This document shows, one piece after another, positions 614 to 18,667 of a DNA stretch of 23,155 bases; positions within the stretch are counted from its first letter, which is position 1, and every line of letters starts with the position of its first letter. Position numbers and translations under genes: made by a program. The stretch lies in the IMG/VR virus record IMGVR_UViG_3300030329_001830, positions 22,817-45,971 of that record; one strand, 5' to 3'. A model generated the notes under the pieces. The model searched no databases. It was not told where the DNA came from and was given only the letters and a program-made list of their open reading frames with translations. The DNA comes from a virus.

Positions 614-3600
614 TTAATCCATACCTACATATTCAATTAAAACTTCAACAATTGGTGCTGTTGTAGGGTCTGTGTCGCTACCACTATAATTATTATCATT
701 ATGTGCTAAGTAAACATATAAATCTGCACTAGTTGTATCTAATGTAGATAATGCTGTATCTGTTCCTAAAGCACTTGCGGCATATCCTACTTTATTTGTA
801 TCTCCACTACCAACTGCTATACCATTATTTGTTCCATCAGCCGCACGACCAGACCAACATTCAACGCTTGTACTAATTAAATCTTGAACATTATTTAAAA
901 CAGTTCCATCTGTTCCACTACTATCTGTAGATAAACAAAGTTTTAAAGTGTGGTTTCCTTGATTACTTAATTGAGTTACTAATGCACAAGCCTTTGTAAT
1001 AACTGCATATCGAGGTATCTTACATATTGCAGTTGTATGTGCTGGGTCATTTGCATCATCGCCACCTTTATTGCAAGTAACTGACTTAGTTACTGTTTTC
1101 CAAATAGATTGACCAATAACAGTTTCATTATCTTGAGTTGCTGTTTGTGAATATCCTATTGCAATCTGATACATAGCCGCACCACCAGTTACATTTGAAC
1201 TTGTGCCAATACAAGTGTTAAATGCCCCAGAATTTGTAATTGTGTTTCCAGCATCTCTACCTACCGCAACATTAGAATAACTATCTCCACAAGAAGTAAG
1301 TGCATTATACCCGACAGCTGTATTATTAGAAGAAGTCGTAATTGCATCAAGAGCAGATGCTCCTACTGCTACATTATAATCACCAGTTGTAATTGCAGTC
1401 ATGGCGTGGCGTCCAACAGCGACATTTTCTATACAAGAACTACCACCAGTAGTACCTTCCATTGCTCCGTGACCGACCGCTGTGTTTAAAGAACCATCAT
1501 CTAAAAATCGCCCAGCATAAGAACCAATATAAGTACATTCTTGTGGAGTAGAGCCACTTGAATCTATATCCTCACCAGCCATATAACCAATCAAAGTACA
1601 ATCAGAAGAATCAACCAACCCAAGTCCAGCTGAAGCACCTACTGCGACATTTCCAGTTCCAGAACTATTATTTAATAAAGCCGAGTGTCCAACTGCTGTA
1701 TTATTTGCAACTGTATTAAATTTTAATGCTTGATAACCAACTGCCGTATTAGCACCTACATCAGTGGCTGTGTATAGAGCCTGTTTACCGATTGCTACAG
1801 ATTCACTTCCAGAAGTAATATTATATGCACTTTCAGTACCGACTGCTACAACTCCAGATGCAGATGTTATATCAAGTAAACTTTCTTTTCCAATTCCAAC
1901 ATTTTCTGAATCTGCACCAGACCCTCCTTTACCAGCAGAATAACCGACATAGGTGTTGCTTGCTCCTGTAGTATAAAATCCAGCCTGATAACCAATTCCA
2001 GTATTGGCACTTGCACTTGAATTATGATATAAAGATTCATGCCCCATTGCAGTATTTCCACCGCCACCTACAACTGTAACAAGAGATGCATACCCTACTG
2101 CTGTATTATAATTGTTAGTAGTATTTGCAAGAGCTGTGAATCCTACGGCTGTATTGTAAACACCAGTTTCATTATCTTCTAAAGCTTGATAACCTATTGC
2201 TACATTACCAAACCCAGTTGTCAATGCATAAAGAGCAGAATATCCAACGGCTACTGTTCCGTCTGCATTACTTGGCATGCTACCGCCTGTAGTCATTACT
2301 CCACTTCCAGCAGAATCACCCATTAAAACAGTTCTATTTACTGTACTAAGATTATCGCCAGCACCTCTTCCTACTGCTGTATTTCTTGTTCCTGTTGTGA
2401 TTGCCAACATACAATCAGAGCCAATACCAGTATTGTCGTCATTACTATTTCCATGAACTCCTTTACCAGCATTTGAACCAATGAAAGTATTGTCATCGCC
2501 AGTAGCGTTATTTGAGCCTGCCTTGTGTCCGAAATAGGTGTTATCTACACCACCCGATGCGATGTCCTCACCAGCCAAATATCCAAAGATTGTATTCGCA
2601 CTTGTGCCATCTGAACCACCAGTACCGCCACTATCATTATTTGTAAGTGAGATTCTGGAGTTGGAATCAATAGTAACTCTCTGCGTTCCAGCAGTCCAGA
2701 ATTGTAATGCTCTATCTGCATTGTCATAAACCAATCTACCATCCAAAGCACCATCAGTAGGATTGCCAAACATAACAGCCCCATCTTTTGCTTCTGGCGA
2801 TAAAATTGATATTAATGAATGGTCGCTATTTTCAACAGTTAATACAGTATTAGAATCACTTGCTATGCTACCAGCAGATGCTTTATGAATGTGCAATGTT
2901 TGGTCTGGAGAAGCCGTACCAATTCCCACACGGCTATTTACAGCATTAACAAATAATACATTTTTATTATTTGCAGAGCCTATCCCCACGTCTCTATCGC
3001 CATCACCTTGTATTGATAAATCACCGCTATCACTTGTAATGCTTCCAATAGCTGAACCACCACCAGTTTGAACTTGTAAACTTGCCTTAGTTGTAATTTC
3101 TTCCGTAGCTGTGATTTCATTAACAAAAGTAGCATCACCAGTTGTATCATCAATCGTTAATCTGGTAGTATTATCTGTTTTGAATATTATATCTCCACCA
3201 CTAACGTCACCTGCATTTAATATAAGCTGACCAGTATTAGTATGCTCATTACCAGCTAATTCAATATACGCACCTCTTGTTTGCGAAACATCTCCACCGC
3301 CACCAATTCTTATTCTTCTATTGTCAGAAGCGTCAGACGATGTTTGATATATATCAAAGTTTGTAGAATTGCCTTTTATACTACCTGTGAATGTGGCATT
3401 ACCCGATGAATCAATGGTCATTCTTGGATTTGCTGTAGATACAGTACCACTATTTGATTCTGTAAAAAAATCTATTCTTGTTGCGTAGTAGCCACTTGTA
3501 CCAGTATCCCAATCGGCATCAGCATTAAATTCTATCTTACCACCTAAGTATGGCGGTGAACCACCAGAATCAGAACCTTGTGCTAAAATAGCTCCTATGG

Positions 3601-5279: not shown

Positions 5280-6496
5280 TGTGCCCTCGCTTGAGACGGT
5301 ACTGAAAAAGCTTGAGCATATTCATTCTTAAGGTCTTGCAATCTAGCTGCCATCCATTGATATTCAGATGATTTTTCAGTTATCTCTTGTTGATATGTTT
5401 GCACCTCTGCCGCCACAAGTGCTTGATATTTAGACGCATCTGTTGATACTCTTTGTAATTCTAATGTATAATCTTGTATAGATGCTTGTAATGCAAGGTC
5501 TGCTTCCTTTTGTGCGTCTTGCATATCTATTTGAGCTTGTTGTAGGTTTCTTTGAATAGCCGCTTGATACTCTACATTTGCATCATTGAATATATTTAAT
5601 TGATTCTGCAACGCTGCTTGATATGCCTGTACATATCCTTGGATCTTTCCTAATTGAGAAGTGGCTAATTCAGTATCTTCTTCGTCTTCGATCATGTGAC
5701 CTAATACCTCGAACCACTTACTAAAGTCTACAAAATCTGCATCTGTTCCTATTGTGCCACTGTCAATAGCCGCTGTTATTTCTTCTGTTGCACCAGCAAC
5801 TGCAGGTGCCGTATATACAGGAGCAGTTGGTAAGGACGCTATCGTTATTGCTCCAACTGAACCTCCTGATATGGTAGGAGCACTTGGAACGGTAGCAGGT
5901 GCAGATGCACTTAAGCTAAATGTAGATATATTGATAGATGATAAATAACTCTGTAAAGATTTTATACTAGCATATAATATCACTAGATATATTTTGTCCT
6001 TTGGAAAGAATTTTATACCCGTACTGGCATGGTCCAATGCACTGCCATCTGTTTCTGCGGGTGAGTTATTTACATAATAAACCTTGAAAGCATTTGGGTC
6101 AGAACCCGGAGCAGGAAAAACATTGATAGCTCCGTTATCTAGGACCGTATACGATGGATAATGTTTAGTAGCAAGATGAATACTTCCTGCTGATACTGCT
6201 TGTCCTTGCATTGAAGGATCGATCTTTGAACACTTCCTCCAGTCATTGTCAGTACCAGACTCTCTAACCACAGAACTGATCTTAGCTCCATTCAAATTTA
6301 GTCCCTGAGATGTTTGTTCAGCTGAAACAGCTAAAAATAAATGATCATCAGAAGGTCGCATTCTTAAATGCTTTTCAGTGACATCAATAACACCGTCATT
6401 TAAAAATGTCGAAAATTCTGCTCTGCTAGGAGCAGTAGAGCTTGCGTCTATCGTCAAGCCTGTTAATCCCATTGCCTGTTCTTGAAAATCTGCCAT
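5276..6496 (-). CDS. Virion structural protein with C-terminal coiled coil
   Basis: This 406-residue protein has an N-terminal globular part (about 1-180) with DGVIDVTEKHLRMRP near residues 34-48. An Ala/Pro/Thr/Ser-rich linker follows (about 190-240), then a long Gln/Ala/Glu-rich heptad region (about 260-400) that should form a coiled coil. Its place between capsid and adaptor genes points to a virion or neck-associated protein. No good Shine-Dalgarno site precedes the ATG: the space is taken by a hairpin at 6505-6533. An in-frame ATG eight codons later, preceded by a weak CAGG, is an alternative start. The stop overlaps the next gene's GTG by 4 nt. The exact role is unknown. Confidence 0.75.
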   Translation of the reverse strand: MADFQEQAMGLTGLTIDASSTAPSRAEFSTFLNDGVIDVTEKHLRMRPSDDHLFLAVSAEQTSQGLNLNGAKISSVVRESGTDNDWRKCSKIDPSMQGQAVSAGSIHLATKHYPSYTVLDNGAINVFPAPGSDPNAFKVYYVNNSPAETDGSALDHASTGIKFFPKDKIYLVILYASIKSLQSYLSSINISTFSLSASAPATVPSAPTISGGSVGAITIASLPTAPVYTAPAVAGATEEITAAIDSGTIGTDADFVDFSKWFEVLGHMIEDEEDTELATSQLGKIQGYVQAYQAALQNQLNIFNDANVEYQAAIQRNLQQAQIDMQDAQKEADLALQASIQDYTLELQRVSTDASKYQALVAAEVQTYQQEITEKSSEYQWMAARLQDLKNEYAQAFSVPSQARAQ

Positions 6497-6956: not shown

Positions 6957-8279
6957 TTAATCTGTGATTTTAAACAAATGGTGACTTTCTATTAATGAGA
7001 TACCTACACCTTCATCAGACATATACTGATCTTTAACACCATCAAAGGCATTATCAGTTTTGATATTTGTCTGATACATGGATGAGCGATACTGAGCATG
7101 AAATAGATTTTCATCACTTACAACAAGCATATACTTATTATAAGGTCCACGTAAAGCGGGTGTTGGGATCAACTGAAGAATGCCGTGAGGCGTTTCAAGG
7201 ATCTTATAATTAAATCCAAGAGAATCACGTCTCATGTCACTTAAGTTAACTGTCCAACCAGAGTTTCCTGCCATGCCTGTGGTTCCAGCCATTTTAGACC
7301 AGTAACCTAGAGCACCAGCACCTACGAAAGCTCTCTTAACACCAGCTTCAGGAACATACTGGAATACTTTTTCCATGTCATCGACAAAGCTACTATAAGT
7401 ATAGCTTGCCTCTGAAACAGTAAAGATATTCGTGTAGTCAACGCTTGAAGAACTACTTCCATATGTCTCAATAGCACTTACGATACCGTAAGTCGTTCTT
7501 ACTAGATTCCCATCAGAATCGAGAACACCACCATCTGCGAAAGAATCACTTGTAGAACCATCTTGAAGATCAAGACCTGTTCCACCAACTCTCTTGCCAA
7601 ACAAGAAAGCCTTTTCCTTCTGCATCTTATGTTCTTGGTTCTTCTGTGCTCTCAAACGTGCTAATTCCGAAGATTCACCACGTAGTGAAGCAGCAAGAAG
7701 GGTTCCTGTGATCTGGAGAGGAGTTTTGAAGATCTGTGTAGAGTTCCAAACTACTTCCAGCTCATCAGCCCAAGCCTCTGGAGAGGTCGTACCCTCACCC
7801 TGTGCATTACCAATGATCAAGAAGATGTCATCGTCCGCTAGGGCGATATCACTTCCTGTGGATGTCCAGAGTGTATTTACAACCACTACTGTAGAACTTG
7901 TAACTGAATCTACTCTGACTATGCCTTTTTTAGTTCCATAGCCATCTGTCCATACTTCACAGATCATTCCAATAAGACTATCATCGATACTACAATTACT
8001 CGCACCATCAACTGTTACGGTGGTATTAGTAGTGTTATCAGAGTCAAGATTATCAGTGTCTCCGTTACATAAGAACAACTGTTTTACCCAAGGATTACGA
8101 TGTTCAAACATCTTAAAGATCGGGTCAGGGACTTTTCTAGTTTCCTTGTTTGAAATTACAGTAGTGAAAGGGGCAACGTCCGTCCAAAGTTCTTTTACAA
8201 CATTTGGGCTGACGTAAAAATCCCGTCTATCTGTATAGAGGACACCAGAAGCACCTAGCTTTTTTTCTGTTGCAGCCAT
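6957..8279 (-). CDS. Major capsid protein (SU10/DUF5309-like)
   Basis: This 440-residue protein directly follows the scaffold-type gene. The N-terminal arm (LYTDRRDFYVSPNVVKELW) leads to FTTVISNKE. A variable Thr/Asp-rich insertion lies at about residues 70-165, and a helical segment (SSELARLRAQKNQEHKMQKEKAFLFGKR) at about 200-230. The C-terminal part contains LETPHGILQLIPTPALRG and a conserved-looking end (about 385-440). This matches my knowledge of SU10-type major capsid proteins (DUF5309), an HK97-fold family; no search was run. An AAGGA site about 10 nt upstream supports the start. It forms the icosahedral head shell and should be the most strongly expressed virion gene. Confidence 0.85.
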   Translation of the reverse strand: MAATEKKLGASGVLYTDRRDFYVSPNVVKELWTDVAPFTTVISNKETRKVPDPIFKMFEHRNPWVKQLFLCNGDTDNLDSDNTTNTTVTVDGASNCSIDDSLIGMICEVWTDGYGTKKGIVRVDSVTSSTVVVVNTLWTSTGSDIALADDDIFLIIGNAQGEGTTSPEAWADELEVVWNSTQIFKTPLQITGTLLAASLRGESSELARLRAQKNQEHKMQKEKAFLFGKRVGGTGLDLQDGSTSDSFADGGVLDSDGNLVRTTYGIVSAIETYGSSSSSVDYTNIFTVSEASYTYSSFVDDMEKVFQYVPEAGVKRAFVGAGALGYWSKMAGTTGMAGNSGWTVNLSDMRRDSLGFNYKILETPHGILQLIPTPALRGPYNKYMLVVSDENLFHAQYRSSMYQTNIKTDNAFDGVKDQYMSDEGVGISLIESHHLFKITD

Positions 8280-14332: not shown

Positions 14333-14647
14333 ATGTTACAAACACTTAAATCCATCCTTAAGGATGCTATGTGGTTATTTATTGGTACTGTCGCTACACT
14401 AGGCTACGTATCTTACAAAGCTGGTAAGCGTGTGGTAGATGACGTTCCAGAAATGATGGAATTCGCTCAGGATACTTATGGTCAGGTCAAGGACGTATTG
14501 TCCAAGGACGCTGAATGTACTGAGCCATTCCATGATCATCATGACGGTTGTCCTGAATGTCATGAACTATCATCAGAGCGTGGCTTCAAAGACACGTGTG
14601 CTTCATGTTTTGTGAAGATACGAGATATAGCGATGTTCAGATCATAA
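14333..14647 (+). CDS. Small membrane-anchored zinc-ribbon-like protein
   Basis: This 104-residue protein has one N-terminal hydrophobic segment (about 12-27, MWLFIGTVATLGYVSY) preceded by a basic residue and followed by KAGKR, suggesting an anchor. A helical linker follows, then a His-rich HDHH and two Cys pairs, CPEC (73-76) and CASC (89-92), separated by 12 residues. That spacing fits a zinc ribbon. The AAAGGAGTAA site about 5 nt upstream secures the start. It is the first rightward gene after the control region, so probably early expressed. A role at the host membrane is possible but not shown; the family is not recognised. Confidence 0.75.
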   Translation: MLQTLKSILKDAMWLFIGTVATLGYVSYKAGKRVVDDVPEMMEFAQDTYGQVKDVLSKDAECTEPFHDHHDGCPECHELSSERGFKDTCASCFVKIRDIAMFRS

Positions 14648-14658
14648 CACATATCATA

Positions 14659-14688
14659 AAGGGTAGGCTTCGGCTTACCCTTTTTTTT
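14659..14688 (+). terminator. Intrinsic terminator with UUCG tetraloop
   Basis: Arms AAGGGTAGGC (14659-14668) and GCTTACCCTT pair over 10 bp with one G-U wobble around the loop TTCG, followed by an 8-T run. It lies 11 nt after the upstream stop and overlaps leader cassette copy 2. Confidence 0.9.
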
Positions 14689-14721
14689 GGTAATTTTCAC
14701 TAACTAAAAGGAGTAATACCT
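14674..14721 (+). promoter_or_regulatory. Recurring leader cassette, copy 2
   Basis: CTTACCC, a T-run, CACTAACTAAA and AGGAGTAA precede the ATG at 14722. Here the TTACCC block also forms the 3' arm of the terminator hairpin. Confidence 0.6.
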
Positions 14722-14958
14722 ATGCAATATCCTGAATGGTATATTGAGCAACAAGCAATGATCAGAAAACGTAGAGATATGGAACGCTTGTATAATAAAG
14801 CAAGTGCGATAAATGATCATTTTATTATAAAAACTCGTGACTATGAAGAATATGTCGATGCGAATATAGCTTGGGTTATGGAAATGCACGATAATGAATT
14901 CATGCACAGCGTAGTTCGTGGAATGCGAGAATTTCTTAAATCTCCATTTACATCATGA
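14722..14958 (+). CDS. Small hypothetical protein
   Basis: This 78-residue protein (MQYPEWYIEQQAMIRKRRDM at the start) is Met, Glu and Arg-rich and probably helical throughout. It has no Cys pairs or membrane segment and no recognised family. The AAGGAGTAA site about 5 nt upstream secures the start. Its stop overlaps the ATG of a 39-residue hydrophobic ORF as ATGA, suggesting that the two are translated as a coupled pair. It lies between two terminators with that ORF, so the pair forms one transcription unit unless the terminators are leaky. Confidence 0.7.
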   Translation: MQYPEWYIEQQAMIRKRRDMERLYNKASAINDHFIIKTRDYEEYVDANIAWVMEMHDNEFMHSVVRGMREFLKSPFTS

Positions 14959-15074
14959 ATATCATACTTAACTGGTTCAATAACTTGCTTATTATCACGC
15001 TGATGACATTTTTATATGTCGGTGTGATAGTTGGCATGGCTACGGTCATTTGGTTCCTTTTTGGAGCCATTTGA
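14955..15074 (+). CDS. 39-residue single-span membrane peptide
   Basis: The ORF starts at an ATG overlapping the previous stop (ATGA) and encodes 39 residues, nearly all hydrophobic: MNIILNWFNNLLIITL, then MTFLYVGVIVGMATVIWFLF. It should form one transmembrane helix. Its 3' end lies inside a terminator hairpin (15044-15088), which constrains the last 10 codons. Such peptides in phages can be holin-like, superinfection-exclusion or host-inhibitory proteins, but nothing here identifies one. Being short and overlapping a hairpin, it could be spurious; the ATGA coupling and hydrophobic bias argue that it is real. Confidence 0.5.
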   Translation: MNIILNWFNNLLIITLMTFLYVGVIVGMATVIWFLFGAI

Positions 15075-15088
15075 CCTTACCCTTTTTT
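15044..15088 (+). terminator. Intrinsic terminator overlapping the end of a coding region
   Basis: GGTCA/TGACC (15044-15048, 15072-15076) and TGGTTCC/GGAGCCA (15051-15057, 15063-15069) pair with a 2x2 T internal loop and a 5-T terminal loop. TTACCC and six T follow. The hairpin begins about 30 nt before the stop codon at 15074. Confidence 0.75.
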
Positions 15089-15120
15089 CTGTGTTTATTC
15101 ATTAACTATAGGAGTAAAAT
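15076..15120 (+). promoter_or_regulatory. Recurring leader cassette, copy 3
   Basis: CTTACCC, a T-run, GTGTTTATTCATTAAC and AGGAGTAA precede the ATG at 15121. It closely resembles copy 1, including the GTGTTTATT element. TTACCC lies outside the terminator stem in this copy. Confidence 0.6.
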
Positions 15121-15360
15121 ATGAGAATACTAGACTATGAAGAATGGTTAGCTGTATGTAAAGACGATATAGATATTGAACTTGCTGAAAATGGTGCTGA
15201 TAGAGAAATGGACTTTGATCCTGAAGAAGAGTATTATCGAAGATATACAGAATATGGATGGTGGTGTGAAGACTATTTTGATGGTATATTAGATAAAAGT
15301 AAGGGTTCTTTGCTTTTATTGTATAACAAAATGTTTGAAAACCTTCAGGAAAATAAATAA
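15121..15360 (+). CDS. Small acidic hypothetical protein
   Basis: This 79-residue protein is strongly acidic and aromatic, with DPEEEYYRRYTEYGWWCEDY at about residues 32-51. It has no zinc motif, membrane segment or recognised family. The AGGAGTAA site about 6 nt upstream secures the start. An intrinsic terminator begins 5 nt after its stop, so it forms its own unit. Small acidic early phage proteins often bind host nucleic-acid-interacting proteins or mimic DNA; this is only a possibility here and no specific target is suggested by the sequence. Confidence 0.7.
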   Translation: MRILDYEEWLAVCKDDIDIELAENGADREMDFDPEEEYYRRYTEYGWWCEDYFDGILDKSKGSLLLLYNKMFENLQENK

Positions 15361-15364
15361 CAAT

Positions 15365-15392
15365 AAGGGTGAGTTTCGGCTTACCCTTTTTT
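15365..15392 (+). terminator. Intrinsic terminator, related to 14659-14688
   Basis: AAGGGTGAG (15365-15373) pairs with CTTACCCTT around the loop TTTCGG, with one G-U wobble, followed by a T-run. The loop and 3' arm are nearly identical to the terminator at 14659-14688, pointing to a duplicated element. Confidence 0.85.
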
Positions 15393-15429
15393 GTCCTTTA
15401 TTAACAAAACATCTAAAAAGGAGCAAAAC
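15380..15429 (+). promoter_or_regulatory. Recurring leader cassette, copy 4
   Basis: CTTACCC, a T-run, CTTTATTAACAAAAC and AAAGGAGCAA precede the ATG at 15430. The Shine-Dalgarno block differs from other copies by one base (GAGCAA for GAGTAA). Confidence 0.6.
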
Positions 15430-15657
15430 ATGAAAAGATGTTTAAATTGTGGTAATGTCTACGACCACAAATCAGTACAGGACAACTTTTGTTCTGTCGC
15501 ATGTCTTGAATTCATTGAACAAGAGGTCTTTGAAAGTGATAACTGCTTTGCGATCATCTCAAAGATCATCGATCTCAATGAAGACGAACTACCAGAGTTA
15601 GATACAGTTGATAAAGTTGTATCTTACAAAGATTTAAAGGCTCAATACGGTAGTTAG
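15430..15657 (+). CDS. Small zinc-finger protein
   Basis: This 75-residue protein has Cys4 and Cys7 (CLNC), then Cys21 and Cys25 (FCSVACLEF). That pattern is a compact zinc finger of the type seen in small phage and bacterial zinc-ribbon proteins. The remainder is acidic and helical. I chose the ATG at 15430, preceded by AAAAAGGAGCAAAAC. An in-frame TTG at 15391 would add 13 residues but lies inside the upstream terminator. A terminator follows at 15668. Nucleic-acid or protein binding is likely from the motif; the target is unknown. Confidence 0.75.
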   Translation: MKRCLNCGNVYDHKSVQDNFCSVACLEFIEQEVFESDNCFAIISKIIDLNEDELPELDTVDKVVSYKDLKAQYGS

Positions 15658-15667
15658 TGGACACAAC

Positions 15668-15700
15668 AAGAGGGTGGGTATCATACCTGCCCTCTTTTTT
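15668..15700 (+). terminator. Strong intrinsic terminator
   Basis: A 13-bp stem, AAGAGGGTGGGTA (15668-15680) with TACCTGCCCTCTT, has two G-U wobbles and a 3-nt loop and ends in a T-run. It lies 10 nt after the zinc-finger gene. Confidence 0.9.
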
Positions 15701-15724
15701 ACAAACACATAAAAAATAGGGAAC

Positions 15725-15777
15725 CTTCAAAAAATCTCTTTTTTTTGGGCAGATCTTTCAAAAAACCTGTTTTTTTT
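15725..15777. repeat. Tandem A6/T8 palindromic repeats
   Basis: Two 21-nt copies of TTCAAAAAA-N-CT-N-TTTTTTTT occupy 15726-15746 and 15757-15777 and match at 19 of 21 positions. Each is an A6-N4-T8 inverted repeat. No ORF covers them. The second copy also forms the inside of the larger hairpin at 15747-15791. Confidence 0.7.
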
Positions 15778-15791
15778 CTTTGATAGATCCC
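15747..15791 (+). terminator. Bulged hairpin before a T-run
   Basis: GGG/CCC, ATCT/AGAT and TCAAA/TTTGA pair in order (15747-15762 with 15779-15791), with a CAG bulge and one mismatch. TTACCC and eight T follow. It is less regular than its neighbours, so termination strength is uncertain. Confidence 0.45.
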
Positions 15792-15836
15792 TTACCCTTT
15801 TTTTTCATTTGTTAATCAAACACATAAGGAGTAATT
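15790..15836 (+). promoter_or_regulatory. Recurring leader cassette, copy 5
   Basis: CCTTACCC, a T-run, CATTTGTTAATCAAACAC and AAGGAGTAA precede the ATG at 15837. Confidence 0.6.
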
Positions 15837-16166
15837 ATGTTAAAACTAAGTGACGTACTCAAGAAAGTTGTAAAGGGTATTAATTTCCAACGCTCAGAGC
15901 GAGTTAATGGCGAATGGGTTAATGAAACTATCGACATACACGCTGTTAAAGCAACGATATTACCGAAAGATGAGAACGACTCAACACCACCTGTTTATTA
16001 CAATATGTGGGTAAAGTCATTCACGACAGATGATGAGCTTGATAAGGCGTTAGACTACCTAACTTCCAAAAGCTTAACGATACTTACGTCTGATAGCAGT
16101 ACCTATACGCATAAAGATGATGACGGTAACGAATCTTCTTTTCGTTTCATGGTCGTATCTTCATAG
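15837..16166 (+). CDS. Hypothetical protein
   Basis: This 109-residue protein (MLKLSDVLKKVVKGINFQRS at the start) has a mixed alpha/beta pattern. A DDELDKALDYLTSKSLTIL helix-strand unit lies near residues 63-81, and it ends with a beta strand SSFRFMVVSS. No recognised family, Cys motif or membrane segment is seen. The AAGGAGTAA site about 4 nt upstream secures the start. The gene is flanked by a bulged terminator-like hairpin upstream and by a candidate structured RNA plus terminator downstream, so its own 3' untranslated region may be that RNA. Confidence 0.7.
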   Translation: MLKLSDVLKKVVKGINFQRSERVNGEWVNETIDIHAVKATILPKDENDSTPPVYYNMWVKSFTTDDELDKALDYLTSKSLTILTSDSSTYTHKDDDGNESSFRFMVVSS

Positions 16167-16340
16167 TGAAATGCAGTTACTTTAATAACTGATATTGAGA
16201 ATATATTTTGCAATGAAACTCTCATTAACCTTAGCGAGAGACTAAGGGTCTACCCAATCTATCTGAATATTATTGGGGAATATAGTGAATTATAGATAAC
16301 TGCTTAAAGGGAGAGGTGTAATACCCTCTCCCTTTTTTTT
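16167..16340 (+). ncRNA. Candidate structured RNA with pseudoknot and terminator
   Basis: No ORF occupies this gap. GCAGTTA (16173-16179) can close the whole domain with TAACTGC (16297-16303), or instead make a local hairpin with TAACTG (16186-16191, using CAGTTA). CTCTC (16219-16223) pairs with GAGAG (16236-16240), and CCTTAG in its loop (16229-16234) pairs with CTAAGG just downstream (16242-16247), an H-type pseudoknot. CCCAAT (16253-16258) pairs with ATTGGG (16272-16277). A strong terminator follows at once. It may be a trans-acting phage RNA, a 3' UTR or a cis-regulatory element; no known class was recognised. Confidence 0.6.
16306..16340 (+). terminator. Strong intrinsic terminator ending the candidate RNA
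   Basis: AAAGGGAGAGG (16306-16316) pairs perfectly with CCTCTCCCTTT over 11 bp, around a short AT-rich loop and followed by a T-run. It starts 3 nt after the closing stem of the candidate RNA. Confidence 0.92.
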
Positions 16341-16360: not shown

Positions 16361-16534
16361 ATGGCAAAAACACTTAAAGCTTTGGTGTTTCACAACATCG
16401 AAGAGGTAGAACTTCTTATTATGTCCATAAATAAGGCGGATATACTACAAGGAGAACCAACAAATCATTTACTTGACTGTCTTTATGAGGTCAGGGAAAT
16501 GTTCTTAAAAGAGGAAGAAAAAAATGATAAGTAA
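16361..16534 (+). CDS. 57-residue hypothetical protein
   Basis: The ORF starts at an ATG preceded by TTATGGAGTAACT, the same Shine-Dalgarno type as its neighbours, and encodes MAKTLKALVFHNIEEVELLI followed by a helical, acidic end. It overlaps the next gene by 11 nt in another frame, consistent with coupling. No domain is recognised. It is short, but the ribosome-binding site, the position right after a terminator and the overlap support it as real. It begins the long run of overlapping small genes that reaches 19638. Confidence 0.65.
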   Translation: MAKTLKALVFHNIEEVELLIMSINKADILQGEPTNHLLDCLYEVREMFLKEEEKNDK

Positions 16535-17988: not shown

Positions 17989-18178
17989 TCCTGAATTCAT
18001 CAAAAAGCATCCGATGGGAATAACGATAAAGGACGCTATACGAATGTACAAATGGATGCTTGAAAAAGGAAAACTAAAAGAAAATGGACCAGCACACCAG
18101 CGATTGAAGCAACTAGAGATGAAATACGCATCTGGGCTAAGACATTTTCCAAGACAAACTACATATACGGGCGAGTAA
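17966..18178 (+). CDS. Small hypothetical protein
   Basis: This 70-residue protein (MPLPFNKYPEFIKKHPMGIT at the start) is basic and probably helical, with AIRMYKWMLEKGKLKENGPA in the middle. No recognised domain is seen. An AAGG sequence about 11 nt upstream is a modest ribosome-binding site. Its GAG codon and stop form the 5' arm of an RNA hairpin (from 18173), so the end of the message is structured. Function unknown. Confidence 0.6.
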   Translation: MPLPFNKYPEFIKKHPMGITIKDAIRMYKWMLEKGKLKENGPAHQRLKQLEMKYASGLRHFPRQTTYTGE

Positions 18179-18248
18179 TAACTTATACCCACCTATTCGT
18201 ATCACTCAGGTATAGTTACTCACAACTACAAATACTCGTCCGTTCTAT
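18173..18248 (+). other. Structured 3' untranslated region
   Basis: GAGTAA at the stop codon (18173-18178) and TATACC (18184-18189) pair with TTACTC and GGTATA (18209-18221) through small bulges, followed by an unpaired AC-rich stretch. The terminator at 18249-18292 follows directly. The gap of 138 nt between coding regions has no ORF. Confidence 0.45.
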
Positions 18249-18292
18249 AGGGAATGGTCAGGCTTAACCGCTTGACCACTTCCCTCTTTTTT
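18249..18292 (+). terminator. Intrinsic terminator
   Basis: AGGGAA and TGGTCA (18249-18260) pair with TGACCA-type and TTCCCT arms (18272-18285) with one bulged base. A 6-T run follows. It closes the operon 16361-18178. Confidence 0.8.
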
Positions 18293-18316
18293 CATATTTA
18301 TAATACAAGGAAACAT

Positions 18317-18667
18317 ATGAGTAAAAGTAGAACACTAGCCTACTTTACGTGGGCTATTAGCAATGTTTTAAACATGACTAAAGAATACACGATCAAAGGT
18401 ATTGACTGGGTATCCAACAAGAAGAGATATGATGTAGAGATAACGATAGAAGGTGTTTTAATGGGCGACAAGAAATCGCTCTCAGCACCGCAGATCATAG
18501 CAATGTTGGACACTATGTCAAACTTTGGAAGCTTAGAAATACATATCACAAACCAAGGAGCAAACAATGGCAAGCGAGACATTCATAGCAAAACTAATGA
18601 AGGAAGCAGTCAAGGACATACAACCGATAAAACCATACATACCGACTCAGAGGAATTCAGCGTTTGA
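18317..18667 (+). CDS. Hypothetical protein with out-of-frame overlapping tail
   Basis: This 116-residue protein starts MSKSRTLAYFTWAISNVLNM and has an alpha/beta core up to about residue 83, with two beta strands (KEYTIKGIDWV and YDVEITIEGVL) and a helix (APQIIAMLDTM). The last 33 residues (Ser/Thr/His/Lys/Glu-rich) are encoded by DNA that also codes for the next gene in another frame. I chose the ATG at 18317, after AAGGAAACAT; an earlier in-frame GTG at 18254 lies inside the terminator. The tail looks like read-on sequence, possibly after loss of an earlier stop. Function unknown. Confidence 0.65.
   Translation: MSKSRTLAYFTWAISNVLNMTKEYTIKGIDWVSNKKRYDVEITIEGVLMGDKKSLSAPQIIAMLDTMSNFGSLEIHITNQGANNGKRDIHSKTNEGSSQGHTTDKTIHTDSEEFSV

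Follow-up and report, generated by a model that had tools for sequence, protein, structure and literature searches.

A 139-nt non-coding segment lies, in the phage studied here, between the stop codon of a small early gene and the terminator that this gene already possessed, and comparison with relatives shows it to be an insertion specific to the lineage. The two ends of the insert are complementary to each other, and our confidence is about evenly divided over whether it acts as a folded 3'-UTR insert that alters how the old terminator works. The phage is uncultivated. The window, i.e. the whole stretch of 23,155 nt that was analysed, comprises bases 22817–45971 of the 45,971-base IMG/VR record IMGVR_UViG_3300030329_001830. 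The structural genes (terminase, portal, capsid) are located in its left half and are read leftward, and small genes in rightward direction begin at about 14.3 kb. The folded segment (16167–16340) occupies the gap between two of these small genes (Table 1). The protein encoded by the upstream one had no match in Pfam or PHROGs and affiliates with no known family.

Relatives with the site were collected among the relatives of the terminase and of the ORF 15837 protein. They comprise five records from four lineages, namely L080, L014 (= L081), L050 (= L082), L020 (= L083) and L024 (= L084), and the orthologues of the upstream ORF in L080, L014/L050, L020 and L024 show identities ranging between 44 and 58%. 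Behind the orthologous gene, the gap between stop codon and terminator is about 4–8 nt in all five relatives versus 139 nt in the window. In L080 orthologues are present on both sides of the site, with the counterpart of ORF 16361–16534 (56% identical) directly behind the terminator, and the insert is missing between them. A search for further syntenic loci via the downstream genes led to the L080 contig only and otherwise to unrelated contexts. The terminator itself, a G+C-rich hairpin followed by a T run, is kept as GGGARAGGG..CCCTYTCCCTTTTTTTT 3' of the orthologue in all five of these records. Since all five relatives have it without the insert, the terminator is ancestral and the upstream gene's own rather than brought along by the insert. 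A tree of the terminases places the window in a group with L014/L050 and L005/L006, where L005 and L080 are one contig, and leaves L020 and L024 outside. On this tree, acquisition of the 139-nt segment once, in the lineage of the window, is simpler than at least three losses.

Table 1 Coordinates of the features discussed; positions refer to the window unless a record is named
Feature	Position	Strand	Remark
Upstream small gene	15837..16166	+	109 aa; its transcript would be extended by the insert
Direct repeat copy 1, ATAGTGAA, 8 nt	16163..16170	+	Left edge of insert
Non-coding insertion, 139 nt	16167..16305	+	Missing at the site in every comparable relative
Closing stem, 5' arm GCAGTTA	16173..16179	+	Perfect complement of 16297–16303
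Alternative local partner TAACTG	16186..16191	+	Partner of CAGTTA 16174–16179
CTCTC/GAGAG hairpin (S1)	16219..16240	+	Arms 16219–16223 and 16236–16240
CCTTAG/CTAAGG hairpin (S2)	16229..16247	+	Arms 16229–16234 and 16242–16247
CCCAAT/ATTGGG hairpin	16253..16277	+	Arms 16253–16258 and 16272–16277
Direct repeat copy 2, ATAGTGAA	16282..16289	+	Exact; spacing 119; near right edge
Closing stem, 3' arm TAACTGC	16297..16303	+	2 nt 5' of terminator stem
Intrinsic terminator	16306..16340	+	11-bp perfect stem 16306–16316/16325–16335, 8-nt loop, T tail
Downstream small gene	16361..16534	+	Syntenic in L080
34-42-nt element	L024:6719-6763	-	
34-42-nt element	L020:4426-4470	-	
34-42-nt element	L023:1140-1184	-	
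34-42-nt element	L060:6270-6314	-	
34-42-nt element	L045:2245-2289	-	
34-42-nt element	L032:6042-6093	-	
34-42-nt element	L034:5501-5545	-	
34-42-nt element	L033:363-407	-	
34-42-nt element	L072:6608-6638	-	
34-42-nt element	L047		
34-42-nt element	L076		

The original prediction described the gap as an RNA of dense, nested complementarity, and every arm that it named is present in 16167–16340. The density was borne out in part: perfect inverted repeats of 6 nt or more number six in the insert versus a mean of 2.7 in dinucleotide shuffles, at P = 0.055. Without the terminator, the folding energy of the insert (MFE) gave z = -2.4 relative to shuffles. Arbitrary stretches of 139 nt over the whole window, on both strands, reach this level in 15% of cases, so folding energy alone says little. 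The best point for more than chance is the complementarity of the two ends. Their duplex energy gave P = 0.003 with 30-nt arms, 0.008 with 35 and 0.02 with 40, and 4% of the 139-nt stretches taken from the window itself have ends of equally strong complementarity. Because the ends of the segment were set independently by the relatives, the comparison does not share the post hoc character of a test on chosen motifs. An interlocked pair of helices, an end-to-end stem and an alternative partner, three features that were picked after being seen, each occurred in 0.5–1.4% of shuffles, two of them together in 0.05% and all three in 0 of 2000.

Within the insert, the long-range closing stem is predicted with a pairing probability of 0.98–0.996, S2 with 0.87–0.90 and the CCCAAT/ATTGGG hairpin, as proposed originally, with 0.74–0.92. 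S1 has a probability of about 0.09, and the best fold containing it lies 0.3 kcal/mol above the optimum. The best fold with the local alternative stem lies 2.5 kcal/mol above the optimum and that stem has a probability of 0.004. By these constrained foldings the interior of the insert has two near-equal folds and the closing stem one, and we infer that the insert mainly adopts one dominant predicted structure and does not act as a switch.

The position of the terminator suggests what such an insert may do. Many small early genes of this phage group have a strong terminator mostly 0–14 nt past the stop codon, with only about 25–40 nt to the next start. In Escherichia coli, the ribosome represses the lambda terminator tR2 almost fully where several bp separate it from the translated gene before it, and the maximum efficiency of about 0.9 is attained beyond about 30 bp (PMC4824070). 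In the proposed explanation, the ancestral layout would similarly allow the terminating ribosome to mask the stop-hugging terminator often, with read-through of the polymerase during translation as the outcome. The insert would be transcribed as the tail of the upstream gene's mRNA and would fold into a multi-branched domain that the 16173–16179/16297–16303 stem closes, with the old terminator immediately behind. By shifting the terminator 139 nt away it would enable termination at full strength and reduce what is expressed from the genes that follow. It would also provide a folded, protected end, either to the upstream mRNA or to a 3'-UTR RNA processed from it. The insertion, its non-coding character, the complementarity of its ends and the older age of the terminator are shown by the sequences, whereas we infer the steps that lead from there to termination efficiency. 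The masking step is borrowed from E. coli and may not apply in the host of this phage.

Similar to the reporter construct with tR2 (PMC4824070), the terminators of this group are located close past stop codons; there the efficiency was set by distance, whereas in this phage an insertion altered that distance in nature. If the distance effect holds, a folded non-coding insertion would have turned a translation-masked terminator into a full one in nature, a simple route for a phage to rewire an operon. The insert also shares its position between stop codon and terminator and a U-rich tail with small RNAs derived from 3' UTRs, e.g. CisR from the 3' UTR of prtV (PMC13250501); phage-related examples of such RNAs have been reviewed (PMC12197685). 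In contrast to CisR and its like, the insert is not conserved. The layout of the early region can be described more generally. At window positions 14333–16340 and in the early regions of L080, L014, L020 and L024, genes and terminators alternate in an operon (gene-terminator-gene-terminator), in which stop codons are followed by terminators after 0–14 nt and, a few tens of nt further on, by the next ribosome site. This arrangement suggests translation-masked terminators, antitermination or processing hairpins.

The main rival to the 3'-UTR insert reading is an insertion or recombination leftover without RNA function, in which the hairpins of an AT-rich stretch are fortuitous and the old terminator is the sole working part. 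We consider it a real possibility, if a less likely one than the main reading. The modest fold z-score, equalled over so much of the window, is consistent with it, and indels of 70–320 nt are common between close relatives. It also agrees with the outcome of all homologue searches. An exact 29-mer from the segment had no match in viral contigs. Searches with the gap by blastn against phages, plasmids and E. coli genomes returned no homologue and one 23-nt chance match in a plasmid, and blastn together with nhmmer over related loci, as well as a search for the insert in 27 related records, found none. A covariance model built from the single sequence and run over 48 sources and 13 records recovered only itself above noise, and a gapped pseudoknot pattern had no match in genome contigs. 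Because no homologue was found, there is no sign of selection on the fold of the insert. The 8-nt repeat ATAGTGAA near both edges would further fit slippage or illegitimate recombination, and it could be due to chance; excision exactly between the closing arms leaves no clean target-site duplication. Against a functionless origin stand the complementary ends of a segment delimited by comparison (P = 0.003–0.02) and the interlocked arms, which are rare in shuffles by a post hoc count.

Some traits of the insert resemble those of MITE-like elements, i.e. a non-coding size of about 130 nt, complementary ends (7 bp perfect, with longer imperfect complementarity) that could represent terminal inverted repeats, and a nearby 8-nt direct repeat. 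It differs from these elements in that it is a single copy in the 45,971-base record, with no other copy in the relatives or collections searched, and in that the direct repeats and the complementary ends bound different segments.

Close relatives of the phage differ from each other at comparable places. Across the area L014 and L050 share about 98.5% identity, and L014 carries an extra non-coding segment of about 154 nt (5570–5729, minus strand), bounded by ATATAATGA/ATATTATGA, exactly between a stop codon and a terminator, that is missing in L050. At another place L014 has a 181-nt non-coding segment (7322–7502, minus strand) that is closed by a 9-bp stem, GGTAACTAC/GTAGTTACC, and carries its own terminator; at the same site L015 has an unrelated 92-nt hairpin segment (1126–1217, minus strand; z = -5.6), and L050 has neither. 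Since the near-identical L014, L050 and L015 differ by such non-coding segments, their turnover in the group is fast, and phage RNAs may arise and vanish quickly. The insert has no sequence similarity to the L014 and L015 segments (P 0.12–0.32), and the two L014 segments, when taken without a terminator, fold no better than shuffles. Their placement is thus similar, and a shared function does not follow from it. A further non-coding stretch, AGCTTACATTAACAAGCAAAG..CACGCCGACTAAGGGTTGTGAGCT, is common to the reverse complements of L020 (6471–6737) and L024 (14831–15164). It has a long closing stem that differs in sequence and yet is paired in both records, and the L024 copy had no match in Rfam.

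A separate, small RNA element of 34–42 nt was recognized in relatives, at several sites 3' of stop codons and in most cases immediately 5' of a terminator (Table 1). It consists of an outer stem, GUAAAA or AUAAAA, a short linker, an inner hairpin, UU and the closing strand of the outer stem. Pairing is kept among the variants of the inner helix (CCCA/UGGG, CUCC/GGAG, CUUC/GAAG and CCUA/UAGG), the outer helix is ACCAC/GUGGU or CCCUGC/GCAGGG, and compensatory changes affect two of nine pairs in the first five sequences. A strict structural pattern of the element matched 14 places versus none in one shuffled set; some of the 14 are duplicates of the same record, and the match in L079 is probably fortuitous. 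The element had no match in Rfam and is missing from the phage of the window. These elements show that real 3'-UTR RNA elements exist in the group at the same kind of site as the insert. A broader and more speculative reading, which we hold only tentatively and think rather unlikely, is that the group keeps fast-changing small structured RNAs between stop codons and terminators, or stand-alone cassettes of an RNA plus terminator. The segment 16167–16340 would be one of them, and they would differ in each lineage and tune termination or act on the host during infection.

Less probable still is the proposal made originally, in which a phage RNA encoded in the gap acts in trans or as a regulator and has a functional pseudoknot or a closing stem with two states. 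The arms on which it was based are real, the S1 fold and the local-stem fold are 0.3 and 2.5 kcal/mol above the optimum, the terminator has a long U tail, and unrelated non-coding segments with structure occur elsewhere in close relatives, one of them with a terminator of its own. The proposed H-type pseudoknot was upheld as far as its helices CTCTC/GAGAG and CCTTAG/CTAAGG are concerned, which form two interlocked pairs within 29 nt (16219–16247) as in pseudoknots of this type. Its geometry is sterically doubtful as drawn: the loops are 5, 1 and 1 nt, and in contrast to H-type pseudoknots in general the third is a single nucleotide, A16241, that must cross a 5-bp stem. By the usual geometry of H-type pseudoknots a 1-nt loop is probably too short for this. 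A frayed pseudoknot of 4 + 5 bp with a 3-nt loop is conceivable. For the two mutually exclusive closing stems, both partners exist, but the states are far from balanced (0.99 versus 0.004, 2.5 kcal/mol apart). The perfect 11-bp terminator announced 3 nt behind the long-range arm is there at a spacing of 2 nt. The regulatory layout drawn from this arrangement is not supported, as neither alternative stem overlaps the terminator stem (16306–16335) or the ribosome site of the next gene; hence no attenuator or riboswitch platform is visible. A balanced bistable RNA or riboswitch is likewise not supported, with stems of unequal stability and no state overlapping an expression platform. Further points against a regulatory RNA are that the segment is not conserved and that no sigma-70-like promoter was found in or just before the gap, where a phage-specific promoter or an RNase site is possible.

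The original remark that no described class was recognized agrees with a search of 4227 Rfam families, none of which matched the window at its gathering score. The weak Rfam matches in the gap were almost all driven by the terminator hairpin. Termite-leu, with an E value of 0.0007 in a 231-base search, reached 26 bits versus a cut-off of 51 and rests on the same hairpin; a tRNA or tmRNA was not detected either. The weakest alternative, in which the segment is what is left of the 3' end of a gene that decayed or was truncated, is largely refuted already and very improbable. A frame of 41 codons is open at 16170–16292 in the frame of the upstream gene, but it lacks a start codon, and 24% of shuffles contain such a frame. 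Its codon score ranks at the 0.6th percentile among pieces of 41 codons from the genes of this phage and mid-range in the out-of-frame distribution, and its translation had no match in Pfam, PHROGs, phages or pattern scans of viral and genome contigs. The segment 16167–16305 is taken as non-coding.

Some additional structures were observed outside the insert. A recurrent leader is located behind a terminator at window positions 15658–15836, in L080 (2336–2494) and in the reverse complement of L014 (12827–13224); it carries the motifs TTTCAAAAAACC and TTACCCTTTTTTTTCATT 5' of the ribosome site and could contain phage promoters. In the other half of the same phage (L166; G000:C1), a terminator-like stem, GGGAGAGGG..CCCTCTCCC, encloses a loop of about 50 nt at 1191–1257, and two strong hairpins are located in a non-coding stretch at 1829–1925. 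Lastly, the strongest fold in a sampled scan of the window was at 18151–18290 (z = -5.95). A terminator-like hairpin at 18250–18283 overlaps the listed start of ORF 18254–18667, and the true start of this ORF may be located downstream of the hairpin.
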